40,832 nt of DNA from contig JAHFHG010000016.1 of assembly GCA_023247035.1 (NCBI GenBank), forward strand, positions 1 to 40,832. The letters run 5' to 3'. The position numbers and the translations under genes were made by a program. The notes under the pieces were generated by a model, which did not search any database, had not been told where the DNA came from, and saw nothing but the letters and a program-made list of their open reading frames with translations. Below are positions 33,720 through 40,832 of the stretch, piece after piece (the stretch's first letter is position 1; each line of letters begins with the position of its first letter). The stretch is from Candidatus Omnitrophota bacterium. Its GTDB lineage: Bacteria > Omnitrophota > Omnitrophia > Omnitrophales > Aquincolibacteriaceae.

Positions 33720-34109
33720 TCAGGCGGCGTCGGGAGGAGGCGGGGCGAGGAGCTGATCGATCTCGTCCTTGAGGCGGGTCAGGTCAAAGGGCTTGGTAAG
33801 GAAGGCGTCGCGGCCGAGTCTTTCAGCCTCGTCAATCAGATGCTGGTCCACGTAGCCCGTATTGACAATGACCTTGATCCAAGGGTAAGAGGCCTTGCAC
33901 ATTTTGAGCACGGCCAGGCCGGACATATCGGGTAGTTTCATATCCAGGAGCACGAGGGCGGGCTTGAGTTTTTCGATAAGCTCGATTCCCATTTTGGCCG
34001 TGTCCGCGGTGTGGACCTCGTAGCCCTCCTCTTCGAAAAAAGATTTTATTTCTTCGACAATTCCCGGCTCGTCGTCAATGATGAGTAACTTCTTCATTCC
34101 CAGCTCCAA
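33720..34109 (-). CDS. Stand-alone response regulator receiver protein
   Basis: KLLIIDDEPGIVEEIKSFFEEEGYEVHTADTAKMGIELIEKLKPALVLLDMKLPDMSGL...FLTKPFDLTRL. Confidence 0.95.
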   Translation of the reverse strand: MELGMKKLLIIDDEPGIVEEIKSFFEEEGYEVHTADTAKMGIELIEKLKPALVLLDMKLPDMSGLAVLKMCKASYPWIKVIVNTGYVDQHLIDEAERLGRDAFLTKPFDLTRLKDEIDQLLAPPPPDAA

Positions 34110-34141: not shown

Positions 34142-36472
34142 TCAGCTCGACACGCTTATCGGCGGATAAGCGCTCGTTCCCTCGCCTGCCGTATCTTCAT
34201 AGGCCGGCAGGGTCACGGTGAAGGTCGTGCCCTCTCCCACTTTGCTTTTCACCGTAACGTCGCCGCCGTGAAGCTCAATAATGTATTTGCACATATAAAG
34301 GCCCATTCCTGAGCCGCGGCCGGGCGGTTTTGTCGTAAAGCCGTAATTGAAAATTTTTTTCATAATCTCTTCGGGCATCCCGCAGCCGTTGTCGGAAAAA
34401 TGGACGGCGACACGGGTCGAATTCTGGGGATCGGGTTCTGCCGTGACACGAATCCTGCGGTTGCGGCGGCCCGTCATTGCGTGGTAGGCGTTGATAAACA
34501 AATTCAGGAAGACTTCCTGCAGGCGTTCGAGATCGCCGCGAACGAGCGGGATGCCGCCCGGGACATCGAACTCCACCTCCGTGCCGCTCAGGTTGTCGAG
34601 ATAAGTTTGAAATTGAACAAGCGGAAGCGTTTCTTCGAGGATCAGTTTGAGTGAAAGCGGCTCAAATTTTCCTTTCTCAGAACGCTTCAAAAGTCCCGTT
34701 AAAGTGTTCACAACAGCTTTGATCCGGCCGATATTTTGCTCCATTTTCTGGAAAAGTTCGAGGACTTCGGCGACCTTGAGGTCGGGATTTTTGCGGTATT
34801 TTAAAATCGCGCGCGACACGTTCATCGAAAGAATCGTTAAGGGATTATTCACCTCGTGGCCGACCGAGGCCGCAAGCCGCCCGAGCGTGGCCATTTTCTG
34901 TTCGTGAATGAGCTGGACCTGGGTGTCCTGGAGCTGCTTGTTGGCGATTTCCGTTTCGTGGAGGGCATTCATCAAAAGGTTTTTGGAATACTCAAGCTGC
35001 TCGTTGATTTTTTCAAGCTGTTTCGATTTGTTGACCGCTTCGTCAAAGAGTTTGGCGTTCTCGATCGCGATTGCGGATTCCTGGGCCAGGGTGAAAAGGA
35101 TATTGAGGTCGTCGGTGGTGTAGTAGTCGCCTGATTTTTTTTCGCCCAAAATCAGAATATTGCGCAGCTCGGGGCCAAGGAAGCTCGGCACGCAGCAGGC
35201 CGATTCAAGCTCCTGCATTGTCAGCAAGATAGCCTGAAAGTCGTAGTGGCGCGGCTCCTGGCCGCGGACTTTCTTCTTATTGCCAGCCTCCATATATTCC
35301 TTGGCGCGCTCGAGGTCGATCGCCTCTTTTTCCCGGATCAGGTACATAATGAGCGGGTTGGCGTCGTCGAGCCGGTATTCCAGAAAATTTTTCGTATACC
35401 CGCGCTGGTAGCCGAGCTCGTACTCTCCGGCTTCCTTGACCTTGATCATGACCGCCGCGTTGCGCACGCGCATTTTCATCGTGATAAAGTGGACGACCAG
35501 GCCGAGGAGGTGGCGCAGGCTCTCGATCTTCGACATTCCCCGCGTGGCGTCTTTCAGGAGCTGCTGGTAATTGTATTTTTTCTGGAAGAGAAAGCGGTCC
35601 GTGAGATTGACGAGGAGGTTGCGTATCGGATCATATCCAAGGACGATCAGGAAAAGCGATATCGCGTACGTCCAAACATTGCTCGCGCCGAAGTAGACAT
35701 TCAGCACTTCGCGGACTAAAAATGTAGCTGCCGAAAAAACCCCGAACACAAATGCCAAAATACCAGCGAATACAAGGGTTTTCTTAATAATAAATTCGAT
35801 ATCGAACTCGCGATAACGAACAATCGTATAACTCATCACAAAAGGGTAAAGCACGATCAATGTGCTAGCATATGGAGGAAAAGGAATGTTGAAAATTAAC
35901 AAGAAAAGGGAAATCCCACCTACAAATCCCAAGAATGAAGAAAACATAAAGAAAAGGATACGCTTGCGATAATTTTCTTTAGCAGACGCGAAAGCTTTAA
36001 ATAAATAAAAGTTAGCGAAGCTGATTGCAAAAACAAAATATAATGCGACATAGAATGGATAGAGCACCCCCTTTTCTGGATAAAAGCGCATATCCATTTT
36101 AGGAAGGAGATCACTCACTACCAGAGGTGTTAATGCCGCCAAAAACATTAGAGTCGAAATAATGTAAGAAAAAATTAACAACTTCCGGCGCCGCCGATCA
36201 TGGCGATGAGTGAATGCAAGTGTCATGTGAAGAAAAATGACAGGGATATAAGCTCCGACAGCATGCGAACAACGGCTCGCGATGATTGCTATTTGATAAT
36301 TTACGATAGGAAGAAGAGTAAGAAAATAGCCGAAAGCCCAAAGTGCAACGGCTGAACAAAACAGCATGAAAATCTGATGAAGGAATTGGCTACGGTTATG
36401 CGAAAAAACAAAAAAACCCAAACAAAAATAGGATATTGTAGTTAAAAAAGTAACAACTATATAAAATGTCAC
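34142..36472 (-). CDS. Sensor histidine kinase: multi-TM N-terminal sensor, GAF-like region, HisKA, HATPase
   Basis: N-terminal TM helices; DDLNILFTLAQESAIAIENAKLFDEA (GAF end); ATLGRLAASVGHEVNNPLTIL (H box); NLFINAYHAM, FSDNGCGMPEEI, GSGMGLYMCKYIIELHGG. Confidence 0.95.
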   Translation of the reverse strand: MTFYIVVTFLTTISYFCLGFFVFSHNRSQFLHQIFMLFCSAVALWAFGYFLTLLPIVNYQIAIIASRCSHAVGAYIPVIFLHMTLAFTHRHDRRRRKLLIFSYIISTLMFLAALTPLVVSDLLPKMDMRFYPEKGVLYPFYVALYFVFAISFANFYLFKAFASAKENYRKRILFFMFSSFLGFVGGISLFLLIFNIPFPPYASTLIVLYPFVMSYTIVRYREFDIEFIIKKTLVFAGILAFVFGVFSAATFLVREVLNVYFGASNVWTYAISLFLIVLGYDPIRNLLVNLTDRFLFQKKYNYQQLLKDATRGMSKIESLRHLLGLVVHFITMKMRVRNAAVMIKVKEAGEYELGYQRGYTKNFLEYRLDDANPLIMYLIREKEAIDLERAKEYMEAGNKKKVRGQEPRHYDFQAILLTMQELESACCVPSFLGPELRNILILGEKKSGDYYTTDDLNILFTLAQESAIAIENAKLFDEAVNKSKQLEKINEQLEYSKNLLMNALHETEIANKQLQDTQVQLIHEQKMATLGRLAASVGHEVNNPLTILSMNVSRAILKYRKNPDLKVAEVLELFQKMEQNIGRIKAVVNTLTGLLKRSEKGKFEPLSLKLILEETLPLVQFQTYLDNLSGTEVEFDVPGGIPLVRGDLERLQEVFLNLFINAYHAMTGRRNRRIRVTAEPDPQNSTRVAVHFSDNGCGMPEEIMKKIFNYGFTTKPPGRGSGMGLYMCKYIIELHGGDVTVKSKVGEGTTFTVTLPAYEDTAGEGTSAYPPISVSS

Positions 36473-36490: not shown

Positions 36491-37153
36491 TTAGCAGGTG
36501 AGTATTTTTTCATATTCCTCTGTAAAATCAAGATGCAGATCCAACGTTTTTAAAAATTCCAATATGTTATGCGCAATAATTCTATGTCCTTCATTGTTGG
36601 GGTGAAGGCCGTCGGGCGCCATAACCTTATCCATCTTCTTTTCAAGATCAGTTCGAATATCTATCCATTTAAATTTCATTTCAGTAGCAACATTCTCAAT
36701 CTCATCATTATATTGTTCCTGAAGAAGAACGGAGTTGGGGTAGCCGGATTCTTGGCATTGTTTGAGATCGGGCCGTGCCTTAAACAATCTGACCGAATCG
36801 ATCGGTTGGAGATTACAAAAAATAGGCGTTTGGTTATTATCATTTATGCGAAGCCCCATCTCCATTAAATTCTTCTTCATTTGTTCAAGAGTAATTTGCG
36901 GGTGTCCTTTTGGACTAAACCAACAATCATTATTTCCAAACAAAATTAAGACGTGTGAAAATTCATGTTGCATAATTACATCGTTTTCTAGACGCCTTAA
37001 CCCATCCTCGCTAGTATTCCAATTTCTTGCTCGCAAGGAAATGGGTATTGTTAATGCGCTTTTAATAAGTTTCGCACAGCAAAGATGACGATCGGAAGCA
37101 CCGGTCCCCGCCAGAATGCTATCACCAAATAAAATTAACCCTTTAATTGCCAT
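36491..37153 (-). CDS. SGNH/GDSL-family hydrolase
   Basis: ILFGDSILAGTGAS (block I), LFGNNDCW (block III-like GNND), DGLHPNNEGHRIIA (block V D-x-x-H). Confidence 0.88.
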   Translation of the reverse strand: MAIKGLILFGDSILAGTGASDRHLCCAKLIKSALTIPISLRARNWNTSEDGLRRLENDVIMQHEFSHVLILFGNNDCWFSPKGHPQITLEQMKKNLMEMGLRINDNNQTPIFCNLQPIDSVRLFKARPDLKQCQESGYPNSVLLQEQYNDEIENVATEMKFKWIDIRTDLEKKMDKVMAPDGLHPNNEGHRIIAHNILEFLKTLDLHLDFTEEYEKILTC

Positions 37154-37162
37154 AAAGCTACT

Positions 37163-37972
37163 CTATCGATTCTTATATTGTGGAATCCGTTTTTCTTTAT
37201 AGGCTTTAAGTCCTTCTTTCATATCTTCTGATCTACAAACCTCTTGAAAACATTCAATCTCTTTCCTCAACCCTTCCTCAAGAGAGCCGCTCTTCAATCC
37301 CTCGCTAATTGCCCTTTGAGCCATTCTCACACAAATCTGACTATTTCGTAAAATCTTCTCTGCCAACTCCAAAGCAACCTCAGCAAGTTTTTCAGGTTTT
37401 GTAATTATGTCAATTAGTCCAATCTCTAAAGCTTCCTGCGCCGAAATTAGATCTCCTGTTAAGATTAATCTTCTAGCCCTTGAAGAGCCGATAAGTCGCA
37501 CTAGTCGTTGTGTACCGCCAAATCCAGGAATTATGCCTAAGTTAACTTCTGGTTGCCCAAATTTTGCCCGTTCAGAAGCTAGTCGTATATGACAAGCCAT
37601 CGCTATCTCATTTCCACCTCCAACACATAACCCATTAATAGCTGCAATTATAGGTTTGTCTAGATTTTCGATTTTGTCGCATAGTTTTTGACCGCCCCGT
37701 GCCAAGATGGCTCCTTCATTTGGCGAAGAGATTGCCATAATTTCATTGATATCGACGCCTGAAGAGAAAGCTCTTTCACCCGTTGCCGTTATGATAAGAA
37801 TCTTTGCACTTTCATCACAGTTAAAATTATCAATGGAGCAATCCAATTCATTAAGAAGGTCCATTCTAAGGGCATTTACTGGCGGGTGATCAATAACCAA
37901 AAGCCAGGCATTTCCATTTTTTTGTTTTTGTATTTCTAAATATTTGAGTTTTGATTTAGCAATTAAGTCCAT
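37163..37972 (-). CDS. Enoyl-CoA hydratase/isomerase family protein
   Basis: FSSGVDINEI, INGLCVGGGNEIAMACHIRLAS, FGQPEVNLGIIPGFGGTQRLVRLIG; both catalytic Glu positions retained. Confidence 0.95.
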   Translation of the reverse strand: MDLIAKSKLKYLEIQKQKNGNAWLLVIDHPPVNALRMDLLNELDCSIDNFNCDESAKILIITATGERAFSSGVDINEIMAISSPNEGAILARGGQKLCDKIENLDKPIIAAINGLCVGGGNEIAMACHIRLASERAKFGQPEVNLGIIPGFGGTQRLVRLIGSSRARRLILTGDLISAQEALEIGLIDIITKPEKLAEVALELAEKILRNSQICVRMAQRAISEGLKSGSLEEGLRKEIECFQEVCRSEDMKEGLKAYKEKRIPQYKNR

Positions 37973-37977
37973 TGGAC

Positions 37978-38268
37978 TTATTTTCCAATCTCAATAATAT
38001 AATCGACTATTTGACTAATTTTTCTCTTTGTATTGGCTTCGCTTATATTTGGGTTAACTTGAAATTCCTCTTCAATTGCATTTAATAAATCTAACGTTTC
38101 AACAGAATCAATTCCCAGATCATCGACAATGTCAGTTCCCCAATCGATTTTCGGCTGGCTATCAATACTCTTTTCATGAAATACTTTTAACAAATTCATC
38201 AAAACTTTCCTAAGACGTTTGAAGACTTCTTCTCTATCGAATGCCATTAGTATATTGACCTTCCCCAA
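37978..38268 (-). CDS. Acyl carrier protein
   Basis: DIVDDLGIDSVETLDLLNAIEEEF with phosphopantetheine attachment motif GIDSVE; true start may be the internal ATG (MAFDREEVF). Confidence 0.93.
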   Translation of the reverse strand: MGKVNILMAFDREEVFKRLRKVLMNLLKVFHEKSIDSQPKIDWGTDIVDDLGIDSVETLDLLNAIEEEFQVNPNISEANTKRKISQIVDYIIEIGK

Positions 38269-38346: not shown

Positions 38347-39159
38347 TTATTTCCTTACTGTAAATAAATTGTACATACCCCATTGATCAGTATTAATATT
38401 AATATTTTTGAACCCGGCTGCGATTAACCATGTCTGAAGAATATTTGGTAATCGATAGTGAAGAATCCATGCTCCTTCTCTTGTCGTACAAACTTTCTCC
38501 ATTAATTTTTTGCTTGGATTATTTTGTTGGTTAACAAAAAGAAATAAGCCCTCATCATCAAGCCCTTCGTAAATCTGTCTAAAAGCGTCTCGAACTTTAT
38601 CATCTTCTAAATATTCAATTAATCCAGATGCAATTATAATATGAGGACGCCAATCAATCTTATTACCAAATTTTTTTAAATGCCCAAGGCGGAATACATT
38701 TCCTTTAAAAAAACGAAGCCTTGTTTCCGAAATTTCATAAGCCTTGGCAATGGACCGCCCCAATTCTAATGATTTATTATCATAATCTACCCCTATGATT
38801 TCAATTCCATCTTGATTAAAAATTGCTTCTAATTCCGCCAAATATCTTCCAGCACCACAAGCAACATCTATTATTCTCATTGTTTTTCCTTCATTTTTTC
38901 TTTGTCGGATTTTTTCTCCAACAATTCTAAGTATATTTTGCTTTCTCGACTGAGTAGCCTTAACTGCGGGTAATCGTAATAAGAAGTAGTCAATGATCTT
39001 CCCAACGCCATAGTATCCCTCTGCTTTCTTTACATACATATGATCAAAATTATACCCTGTTGAAGCTTCTCCCAATACGCTTTGCCTACCCAACTTACTC
39101 ATAAGCAATATCCTTCGAATGATTTTCTTATAGATAAAATCTTCTAATGACTGCTTCAT
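38347..39159 (-). CDS. Class I SAM-dependent methyltransferase (resembles Methyltransf_20-type proteins, from memory)
   Basis: RIIDVACGAGRYLAELE (SAM motif I), IIGVDYDN (motif II), PHIIIASGLIEYLEDDKVRDAF, LLFLFVNQQNNP-like segment, AAGFKNININTDQWGMYNLFTVRK. Confidence 0.85.
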   Translation of the reverse strand: MKQSLEDFIYKKIIRRILLMSKLGRQSVLGEASTGYNFDHMYVKKAEGYYGVGKIIDYFLLRLPAVKATQSRKQNILRIVGEKIRQRKNEGKTMRIIDVACGAGRYLAELEAIFNQDGIEIIGVDYDNKSLELGRSIAKAYEISETRLRFFKGNVFRLGHLKKFGNKIDWRPHIIIASGLIEYLEDDKVRDAFRQIYEGLDDEGLFLFVNQQNNPSKKLMEKVCTTREGAWILHYRLPNILQTWLIAAGFKNININTDQWGMYNLFTVRK

Positions 39160-40398
39160 CTAATCGACCTTTCTAAAAACTAAGACGGAATTATTTGAAC
39201 CGAAACCAAAGGAATTGGACATTGCGTAGTCGATCTTACATTCTAAGGCTTTTTTTCTTACAACATTAATGTCGCACTCTTCATCAAGCTCGTCACAGTT
39301 AATAGTGGGTGAAATAATCTGATCTCTAACGGATAAAACTGTCAATATTGCCTCGATAGCCCCAGCTGCCCCTATCATGTGCCCTGTTTGTGATTTCGTA
39401 CTGGATACATAGGGTGTTTTATTACCAAATACTTTTCGAATAGCTTTCGCTTCTGCAATATCATTCATTTTCGTCGCTGTTCCATGTGCATTTATGTATT
39501 GCACTTGATCTTTAGCTATGTCACTTTTTTTTAGGGCATTTTCAATCGCAATCGCCGCATCCTCACCATTAGGCTCTGGGATTGCCATGTGATAGGCTCC
39601 GCAGTTGCTTGAATATCCACTGAGTTCTGCATAAATTTTGGCTTTGCGAGTAACGGCATTTTCATAAGTCTCGAGTATCAAAATACCTGCACCTTCCCCT
39701 AATACAAAACCGTCTCTCTTCTTGTCAAAAGGTCTGGGCGTATTAAAACCTATTTTACCGTTGCCTTTCGAAAGCACTCGCAATGATTGATAAGCTGCAT
39801 AAGTAAACGGTGTAATCGGACATTCAACGCCACCCGTAACAACAACATCAGCTATTCCCAATTCTAAAAGCTGGGCAGCTGTTGCTATTGCATTTCCTCC
39901 GGACGAACAAGCGGTTGAAATAGTTAAGTTTTCTCCTTTCAGCTTGAACTCCATAGCAATATATGCAGACACGGCATTGGGTGCAATTCTCAGCACTGAA
40001 CTCGACAAAACACGGCGCGGATCCTTGCCTCCAATGAGTTTAAAGATCTGTTCCTCATGAAAAAGGCTTCCACCCAGTCCAGAACCTATTACAACAGGCA
40101 CCTGATCGTGTTTCGCTTCAAGATATGAGTTTATATCTGCATCTTCAACGGCCATTCGTGCAGCAGCGATTCCCATTTGTGCAAACCGGTCTGTTTTTCT
40201 AAATAGTTCAGAAGACATGAAATTTTTAGGATCAAAATTCTTGACCTCGGCTGCAATGTTTGTCTCATAATTTGTAGCATCAAAAAGCGTGACGTTACCC
40301 ACCCCTGACTTTCCGGCTAAAGAGGACTGCCAAGTTTCTTCAATTCCAATGCCGATGGGTGTAATGGCCCCTAAACCTGTGACAACAATTCTCTTCAT
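39160..40398 (-). CDS. Beta-ketoacyl-ACP synthase II-type ketosynthase
   Basis: VVTGLGAITPIGIGIEETW, ISTACSSGGNAIA (active Cys), NAHGTATKMND (His), SSTKSQTGHMIGAAGA (Lys/His), SFGFGSNNSVLVF. Confidence 0.96.
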   Translation of the reverse strand: MKRIVVTGLGAITPIGIGIEETWQSSLAGKSGVGNVTLFDATNYETNIAAEVKNFDPKNFMSSELFRKTDRFAQMGIAAARMAVEDADINSYLEAKHDQVPVVIGSGLGGSLFHEEQIFKLIGGKDPRRVLSSSVLRIAPNAVSAYIAMEFKLKGENLTISTACSSGGNAIATAAQLLELGIADVVVTGGVECPITPFTYAAYQSLRVLSKGNGKIGFNTPRPFDKKRDGFVLGEGAGILILETYENAVTRKAKIYAELSGYSSNCGAYHMAIPEPNGEDAAIAIENALKKSDIAKDQVQYINAHGTATKMNDIAEAKAIRKVFGNKTPYVSSTKSQTGHMIGAAGAIEAILTVLSVRDQIISPTINCDELDEECDINVVRKKALECKIDYAMSNSFGFGSNNSVLVFRKVD

Positions 40399-40437: not shown

Positions 40438-40832
40438 TTATTGAGATTTAGAATTTACATTTACAATTTGTGCTTCTTGGCTTCTAGAAGAAAATAGGTT
40501 GTCCCATTTATAAGTCAAGCTGATAGTGAATTCCTGAAGGAAAGTAAAATAGTTACCGTCCACAGATTGACCCAAAGCTTCTGAAGTCGCACTTTTAATT
40601 TTTCTACGAAGATTAAAAAGCGAGAGATGTGATATATCCAAGACTAAATTTTTATTGATCTGATAGCCTAATCCAAGACTAAAACCTAAACGGTTGCTGT
40701 CTGGTACTGCAGGAATAAAATGGTCCGCCGGCACAACAAAGGTGTAAAATAAGCTTCCCGCGCGCAAAGAAATTTTATCCGTCAGTTTGTGATTTCCGCC
40801 AAGATGCATACTAAAACTATTGGAGTAATCTT
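40438..40832 (-). CDS. FadL/OMPP1-like outer membrane beta-barrel protein, C-terminal part (runs off the window)
   Basis: Frame stays open through 40832 (DYSNSFSMHLGGNHKLTDKISLRAGSLFY...NRLGFSLGLGYQINKNLVLDISHLSLF...FTISLTYKW); alternating beta-strand pattern and terminal aromatic-rich strand. Confidence 0.75.
   Translation of the reverse strand, partial: DYSNSFSMHLGGNHKLTDKISLRAGSLFYTFVVPADHFIPAVPDSNRLGFSLGLGYQINKNLVLDISHLSLFNLRRKIKSATSEALGQSVDGNYFTFLQEFTISLTYKWDNLFSSRSQEAQIVNVNSKSQ

Follow-up and report, generated by a model that had tools for sequence, protein, structure and literature searches.

Architecture of the locus

The window, by which we mean the whole stretch of DNA analysed, is a complete contig of 40,832 bases from an Omnitrophota draft genome of 1.85 Mb in 64 contigs. 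Towards its right-hand end lies a histidine kinase gene, with a response regulator gene on one side and a cassette of biosynthetic genes on the other:

33720–34109, reverse strand: single-domain response regulator (PF00072), directly after the kinase
34142–36472, reverse strand: histidine kinase, 776 aa, comprising a 7TM sensor, two-helix linker, GAF-like region, HisKA and HATPase_c
34142–35539, reverse strand: kinase core, conserved (65–75% identity across the family), GC3 ~0.70
35588–35794, reverse strand: linker, aa 227–295, two more membrane helices, of the resident type common to G003, G017, G005 and G015
35698–35722, reverse strand: composition change point, codons 251–259 (best 253), from GC3 likelihood
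35759–35794, reverse strand: protein-level junction, aa 227–238 (FIIKKTLVFAG), where the nearest relatives switch in an identity scan
35816–36472, reverse strand: sensor, aa 1–219, AT-rich and, as argued below, exchangeable; a membrane module of seven helices, the fourth and fifth separated by a beta hairpin
36491–37153, reverse strand: GDSL hydrolase (PF13472), in the same position in G016, G006, G038 and G041
37163–37972, reverse strand: enoyl-CoA hydratase, crotonase family (PF00378)
37978–38268, reverse strand: acyl carrier protein (ACP; PF00550), with counterparts also in G038 and G041
38347–39159, reverse strand: methyltransferase (PF12147)
39160–40398, reverse strand: FabF-type ketoacyl synthase (PF00109/PF02801; TIGR03150 just below cut-off)
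40438–40832, reverse strand: C-terminal part of a FadL/TodX outer-membrane channel (PF03349, profile positions 321–419 of 421)

The cassette genes upstream of the kinase are all AT-rich. The FadL/TodX frame is open to the contig edge, and the gene is cut by the contig end. The crotonase finds its best NCBIfam and PDB matches in ordinary enoyl-CoA hydratases, with no RpfF among the best matches listed. A role in anti-phage defence was considered and rejected, with only weak, generic methyltransferase hits returned. At L066/L052 (L052:12435–13535; G016), the gene directly after the kinase is flanked by two AT-rich ORFs of 93 and 109 aa that are 78% identical to each other.

In Pfam, HisKA_7TM (PF16927) matches residues 9–225 of the kinase with 60 bits (cut-off 28.6) and HATPase_c matches residues 646–757 with 90 bits. 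The HisKA match at residues 530–591 scores 24.7 bits, slightly below its cut-off of 26.9, and the GHEVNNP motif is invariant in 18 of 18 aligned cores. By these matches, the protein is predicted to combine the seven-TM N-terminal domain and the kinase catalytic domains of the HisKA_7TM class. AlphaFold2, run on 23 sensors (mean pLDDT 87), predicts a module of seven helices that ends at residue 219, in which a beta hairpin follows the fourth helix; beyond it are a low-confidence hinge and long helices at residues 227–261 and 265–295.

The layout of the predicted sensor (window 35540–36472), seven helices with a hairpin after helix 4, resembles that of GPCRs. Homology to GPCRs was nevertheless set aside: the best Foldseek hits are all GPCRs, with E ≥ 0.007 and TM scores of ~0.3–0.5, which is too weak. 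A sequence search of the PDB returned no relatives of the sensor, and a viral origin was rejected, as viral contigs held no relative.

A composition break within the kinase gene

Across the whole contig, GC content is ~0.52 up to 35.5 kb and 0.34–0.42 beyond, and the AT-rich side reaches the contig end, as the original prediction had held. Because the contig stops at 40,832, the outer border of the AT-rich block lies outside our view. The step falls within the kinase gene, whose reading frame is unbroken across it. Synonymous GC3 changes at codon 253 (window 35716), from 0.34 before to 0.69 after, with a likelihood interval of codons 251–259 (window 35722–35698); the composition background comprised the window and ~95 kb taken from other contigs. 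At a 2lnLR of 83, the kinase gene ranks top of 76 ORFs of at least 250 aa from the same genome (runner-up 20.6), and none of 2000 codon shuffles matched this value (shuffle maximum 16.7). The GC break within one intact gene, the central claim of the original prediction, is therefore confirmed as real and far past chance.

The drop had been predicted near residue 240. This is ~13 codons off the composition step, but it agrees with the protein-level switch of relatives described below. The composition break sits where the seven-helix module ends in the AlphaFold2 prediction.

Sensor and core have different relatives

The kinase core shows 65–75% identity in ~20 genera, most of them members of the same family; it was recovered from 28 Omnitrophota records. 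Its tree contains a tight group of eight genomes (G006, G011, G016, G018, G019, G021, G023 and G025), and the UvrA tree, used as a species proxy, recovers the same group for its seven included members. The core tracks the species tree across ~28 Omnitrophota loci, and we read this GAF-type kinase as resident and vertically inherited. A sensorless form of the same core, ~500 aa in length, occurs in several genomes, and in L070 it begins at a motif just ahead of the GAF region. At L084 (G041 contig 22, 6.9–14 kb), a sensorless core kinase of 561 aa lies beside a cassette with its own complete 7TM kinase; this arrangement could be the state preceding fusion of a sensor onto the core.

Sensors on the family cores are mostly 26–38% identical to the window sensor, and at least seven unrelated types are present on these cores. 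The window sensor is nearest to those of G016 and G006 (61% identity) and groups with them in the sensor tree (support 100/99), followed by G041 and G038, kinases whose cores are only 29–35% identical to the window core. The core tree rejects a clade of the window, G016 and G006 (dlnL 129) as well as the five-member sensor group (window, G016, G006, G041 and G038; dlnL 162), and the linker rejects the former (dlnL 53, p 2e-5). The sensors of the eight close cores are scattered, with a cost of dlnL 464 for forcing them together. For all orthologous-core sensors as one clade, the AU test gave a formally non-significant p-AU of 0.068 despite a dlnL of 407. Built separately, the sensor and core phylogenies thus conflict in their placements, bearing out the domain swap that had been predicted.

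The identity scan places the switch of relatives at residues 227–238, where identity to the sensor relatives falls from 77% to 25% and identity to the linker relatives rises from 44% to 85%. The FIIKKTLVFAG motif is common to both sides. The switch is 15–25 codons away from the composition step and falls just where the seven-helix module ends. The protein junction, at a conserved motif, is also a predicted domain boundary. In G016, G011, G021, G025 and G018 the AT-rich stretch continues towards residue 300, where there is a second conserved motif. Exchange was probably by recombination within such conserved motifs.

We are close to certain that sensors have been exchanged as modules. The break is best explained as the seam of such an exchange, in which a resident core with its linker acquired, in frame, an AT-rich 7TM sensor of a type that belongs to a class of biosynthetic cassettes. 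Exchange has taken place repeatedly, in or close to this one domain boundary; it recurs in many genomes and is not peculiar to the window genome.

This recurrence also bears on an assembly or binning chimera joining two organisms at a conserved motif, which the original prediction had named as the alternative. A draft genome in 64 contigs, an abrupt change and an AT-rich part at the contig end are what such a join would produce. However, the reading frame is intact, the estimated contamination of the source genome is 0.92%, and the cassette with this sensor type is found in a single-cell genome, G038, which the contig number and position of the core hit in L078 identify as Ca. Omnitrophus fodinae. 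The independent genome G016 has the same sensor-to-core fusion (GC3 0.28/0.71), and GC3 drops by at least 0.25 near the same place in seven relatives, which makes a chimera very improbable. Slighter still is the chance that there was no transfer, and that membrane segments and relaxed codon selection lowered GC in a fast-evolving sensor while the core kept optimal codons: core GC3 is above that of its neighbours in several genomes and sensors are everywhere the less conserved part, but synonymous GC3 itself breaks, ~7 orthologs of the same architecture lack the step, the upstream genes are low in GC too, and the conflict between sensor, linker and core phylogenies refutes this as a full explanation, although such an effect may have enlarged the step.

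A within-gene GC step, readily dismissed as an artefact, can flag loci of this kind in metagenomes, and the natural junction at residues 227–238 marks a site for sensor swaps in laboratory experiments.

Neighbouring enzymes follow sensor type

The FabF–methyltransferase–ACP–crotonase–GDSL set lies ahead of the same sensor type in four other genomes: in G016 and G006 the kinase is the same, whereas G038 and G041 have another one. The recurrence of the pairing on other kinases upholds the suggested link between the sensor and the lipid operon, as a link by type. Other sensors adjoin other enzymes:

L060, L073 and L084 (sensor clade): acyltransferase and PigE/AAR-like reductase
L068, L083 and G027 (sensor clade): HAD phosphatase, with or without acyltransferase
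L069, L074 and G032 (sensor clade): ICMT-type methyltransferase
L064, L072 and L075 (sensor clade): PF12147 methyltransferase and alpha/beta-hydrolase gene (the L072 hydrolase carries a fused receiver domain)
L058, L062, L067, L078, G018 and G039 (sensor clade): PF12147 methyltransferase alone
L071: FabF–ACP–thioesterase–HpaB

An upstream enzyme family is shared by all 18 pairs with a sensor identity of at least 40%, compared with 92 of 276 pairs overall; where sensors are at least 40% but cores less than 50% identical, 12 of 12 pairs share one. In label shuffles, the association with enzymes gave p = 0.0002 for the sensor and p = 0.44 for the core. The AUC across all pairs is only modest (0.67), since several types of cassette have PF12147 enzymes in common; for this reason, and because the pairs are non-independent, the size of the enzyme-sharing effect needs care. 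Sharing the PF12147 family alone is weak evidence, since it is present in many cassettes.

As a prediction test, the surroundings of four other-core kinases were examined after the trees had been built. The cassette forecast from the sensor clade was present for three of the four (G032, G018 and G039) and absent for L120_11. One sister pair, L058 and the G027 kinase, does not share a cassette, and the sensor-bearing cores of L059 and L065 have no adjoining one. Overall, the adjacent enzymes can be predicted from sensor type and not from core similarity.

Two further gene arrangements were observed. The conserved upstream gene of cluster 4 (L059:4590–6221, L058:3–1628 and 11 more loci) encodes SRPBCC, a polyketide cyclase-like domain, together with an acyl-ACP-reductase/PigE-like domain. 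A class III aminotransferase gene comes next in L058, L081 and L084, as though PigE had been split. The alpha/beta hydrolase of L072 (6957–8249; relatives in L064 and L075) forms, with the adjacent PF12147 methyltransferase, a pair resembling a split YnbC, and in L072 the receiver fused to it is of the response-regulator kind.

A locus of mixed ancestry

The four enzymes of the window are nearest to those of G038 (64% identity over the concatenation), and the sensor is nearest to G016 and G006. The enzymes reject the sensor topology (dlnL 43, p 5e-5) and the sensor rejects the enzyme topology (dlnL 62, p 2e-4). Because these nearest relatives conflict, a single-event swap is too simple, and the proposal that the sensor was acquired together with the lipid operon needs correcting on this point. 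The locus is a mosaic of at least three parts: the enzymes, the sensor, and the linker with the core. The sensor and cassette of the same type in G006 have a near-host GC3 (0.55–0.66), so AT-richness alone neither proves nor dates a foreign origin.

Proposed signalling function

From the families of its enzymes, we infer that the cassette produces a hydrophobic molecule resembling a fatty acid. Its chain would be built or carried by FabF and ACP, tailoring would fall to the crotonase and methyltransferase, and the GDSL hydrolase would release or edit the product. The product would be exported, possibly re-entering via the FadL channel, and bound by the adjacent 7TM module, which would switch the conserved kinase; the kinase would in turn phosphorylate the small response regulator next door. 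Swapping the synthase and sensor while keeping the kinase would change the signal made and heard under a constant output, as in the pherotypes of comQXP and agr. FadL-type channels are found in or beside the window locus, L074, L079, L083 and L123, and would fit the entry of a hydrophobic molecule from outside; in Sinorhizobium, FadL takes up long-chain AHL signals (PMC9938287).

The main rival to signalling has the cell privately monitoring a lipid that it makes for itself. On this view exchange does occur, but the cassette serves to make or remodel a lipid of the membrane, or a pigment, and the 7TM module reports the product or the membrane state as feedback. We consider this a doubtful, if credible, possibility. 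The enzymes are of lipid type, no exporter is annotated in the window cassette, and an association between sensor and enzyme types is expected of any cognate product–sensor pair; yet rapid replacement of product and sensor under a constant kinase output would be more typical of receptor–signal pairs than of structural lipids, and FadL-type channels adjoin several loci.

An exchanged sensor-cassette on a resident core, with a signalling role, is overall the best explanation and, in our judgement, a fairly probable one. By analogy, a cell–cell (quorum-sensing) function for it is evenly poised. We advance only tentatively the fullest version, a multi-allelic Omnitrophota locus for cell–cell signalling. 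In it, six or more lipid-type synthase sets of differing chemistry, each with its own 7TM receptor, would share one core, having been plugged in time and again by recombination at a fixed domain boundary. Omnitrophota occur widely and have hardly been cultured, and our literature search found no description of such a signalling system in them. If sensors and enzymes are cognate, the locus supplies a list of natural receptor–ligand pairs that covers several chemistries, all on a single kinase chassis, and the ligands of 7TM histidine kinases become directly testable.

Comparison with known systems

Domain shuffling is a known origin of new histidine kinases (PMC8895600). The Omnitrophota loci differ from this general process in that the sensor is tied by type to neighbouring biosynthetic genes, and in the repeated refitting of a single core within one lineage.

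In the DSF system, the crotonase-family enzyme RpfF is encoded near the multi-TM sensor kinase RpfC, which carries receiver and Hpt domains. The window likewise has a crotonase-family gene near a multi-TM sensor kinase gene; its product, however, matches ordinary enoyl-CoA hydratases, and, unlike RpfC, the window kinase has neither a receiver nor an Hpt domain in Pfam.

In the Phc system of Ralstonia, the methyltransferase PhcB makes a fatty-acid methyl ester signal for the PhcS kinase, with soluble receiver-domain regulators downstream (PMC11960443). The window similarly pairs a methyltransferase gene with a neighbouring gene for a sensor kinase, whereas its FabF, ACP, crotonase and GDSL genes are without counterpart in the described phcBSR operon (PMC11960443). 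PF12147 was rejected as a marker for PhcB, as plasmid PF12147 matches are YnbC-like (~25%).

In the agr system of Staphylococcus, the signal genes and the membrane half of the receptor vary, and the kinase half and the regulator are conserved. In comQXP, too, variation is concentrated in the genes that make the signal and in the membrane half of the receptor, against a conserved kinase half and regulator (PMC6334282, PMC4008528), and the 5′ part of Bacillus comP varies along with comQ and comX (PMC6334282). The window locus is alike in that, in most orthologs, its sensor half is 26–38% identical compared with 65–75% for the kinase half, and in that the sensor allele is associated with the adjacent synthesis genes (18/18, p 0.0002), with conflicting trees within a type. 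The signals of comQXP and agr are modified peptides, whereas the Omnitrophota loci carry fatty-acid/polyketide-type enzymes of several unrelated chemistries; the genes recognised from the kinase to the contig end all encode an enzyme, ACP or FadL, with no peptide precursor among them. The Omnitrophota exchange also differs in spanning genera and families, with the same sensor found on other kinases as well. We suggest that the locus works like comQXP and Phc, claiming membership in neither, and its best reading, by analogy, would be a multi-allelic locus of synthase and receptor, organised like the comQXP and agr pherotype loci but with lipid-type enzymes.
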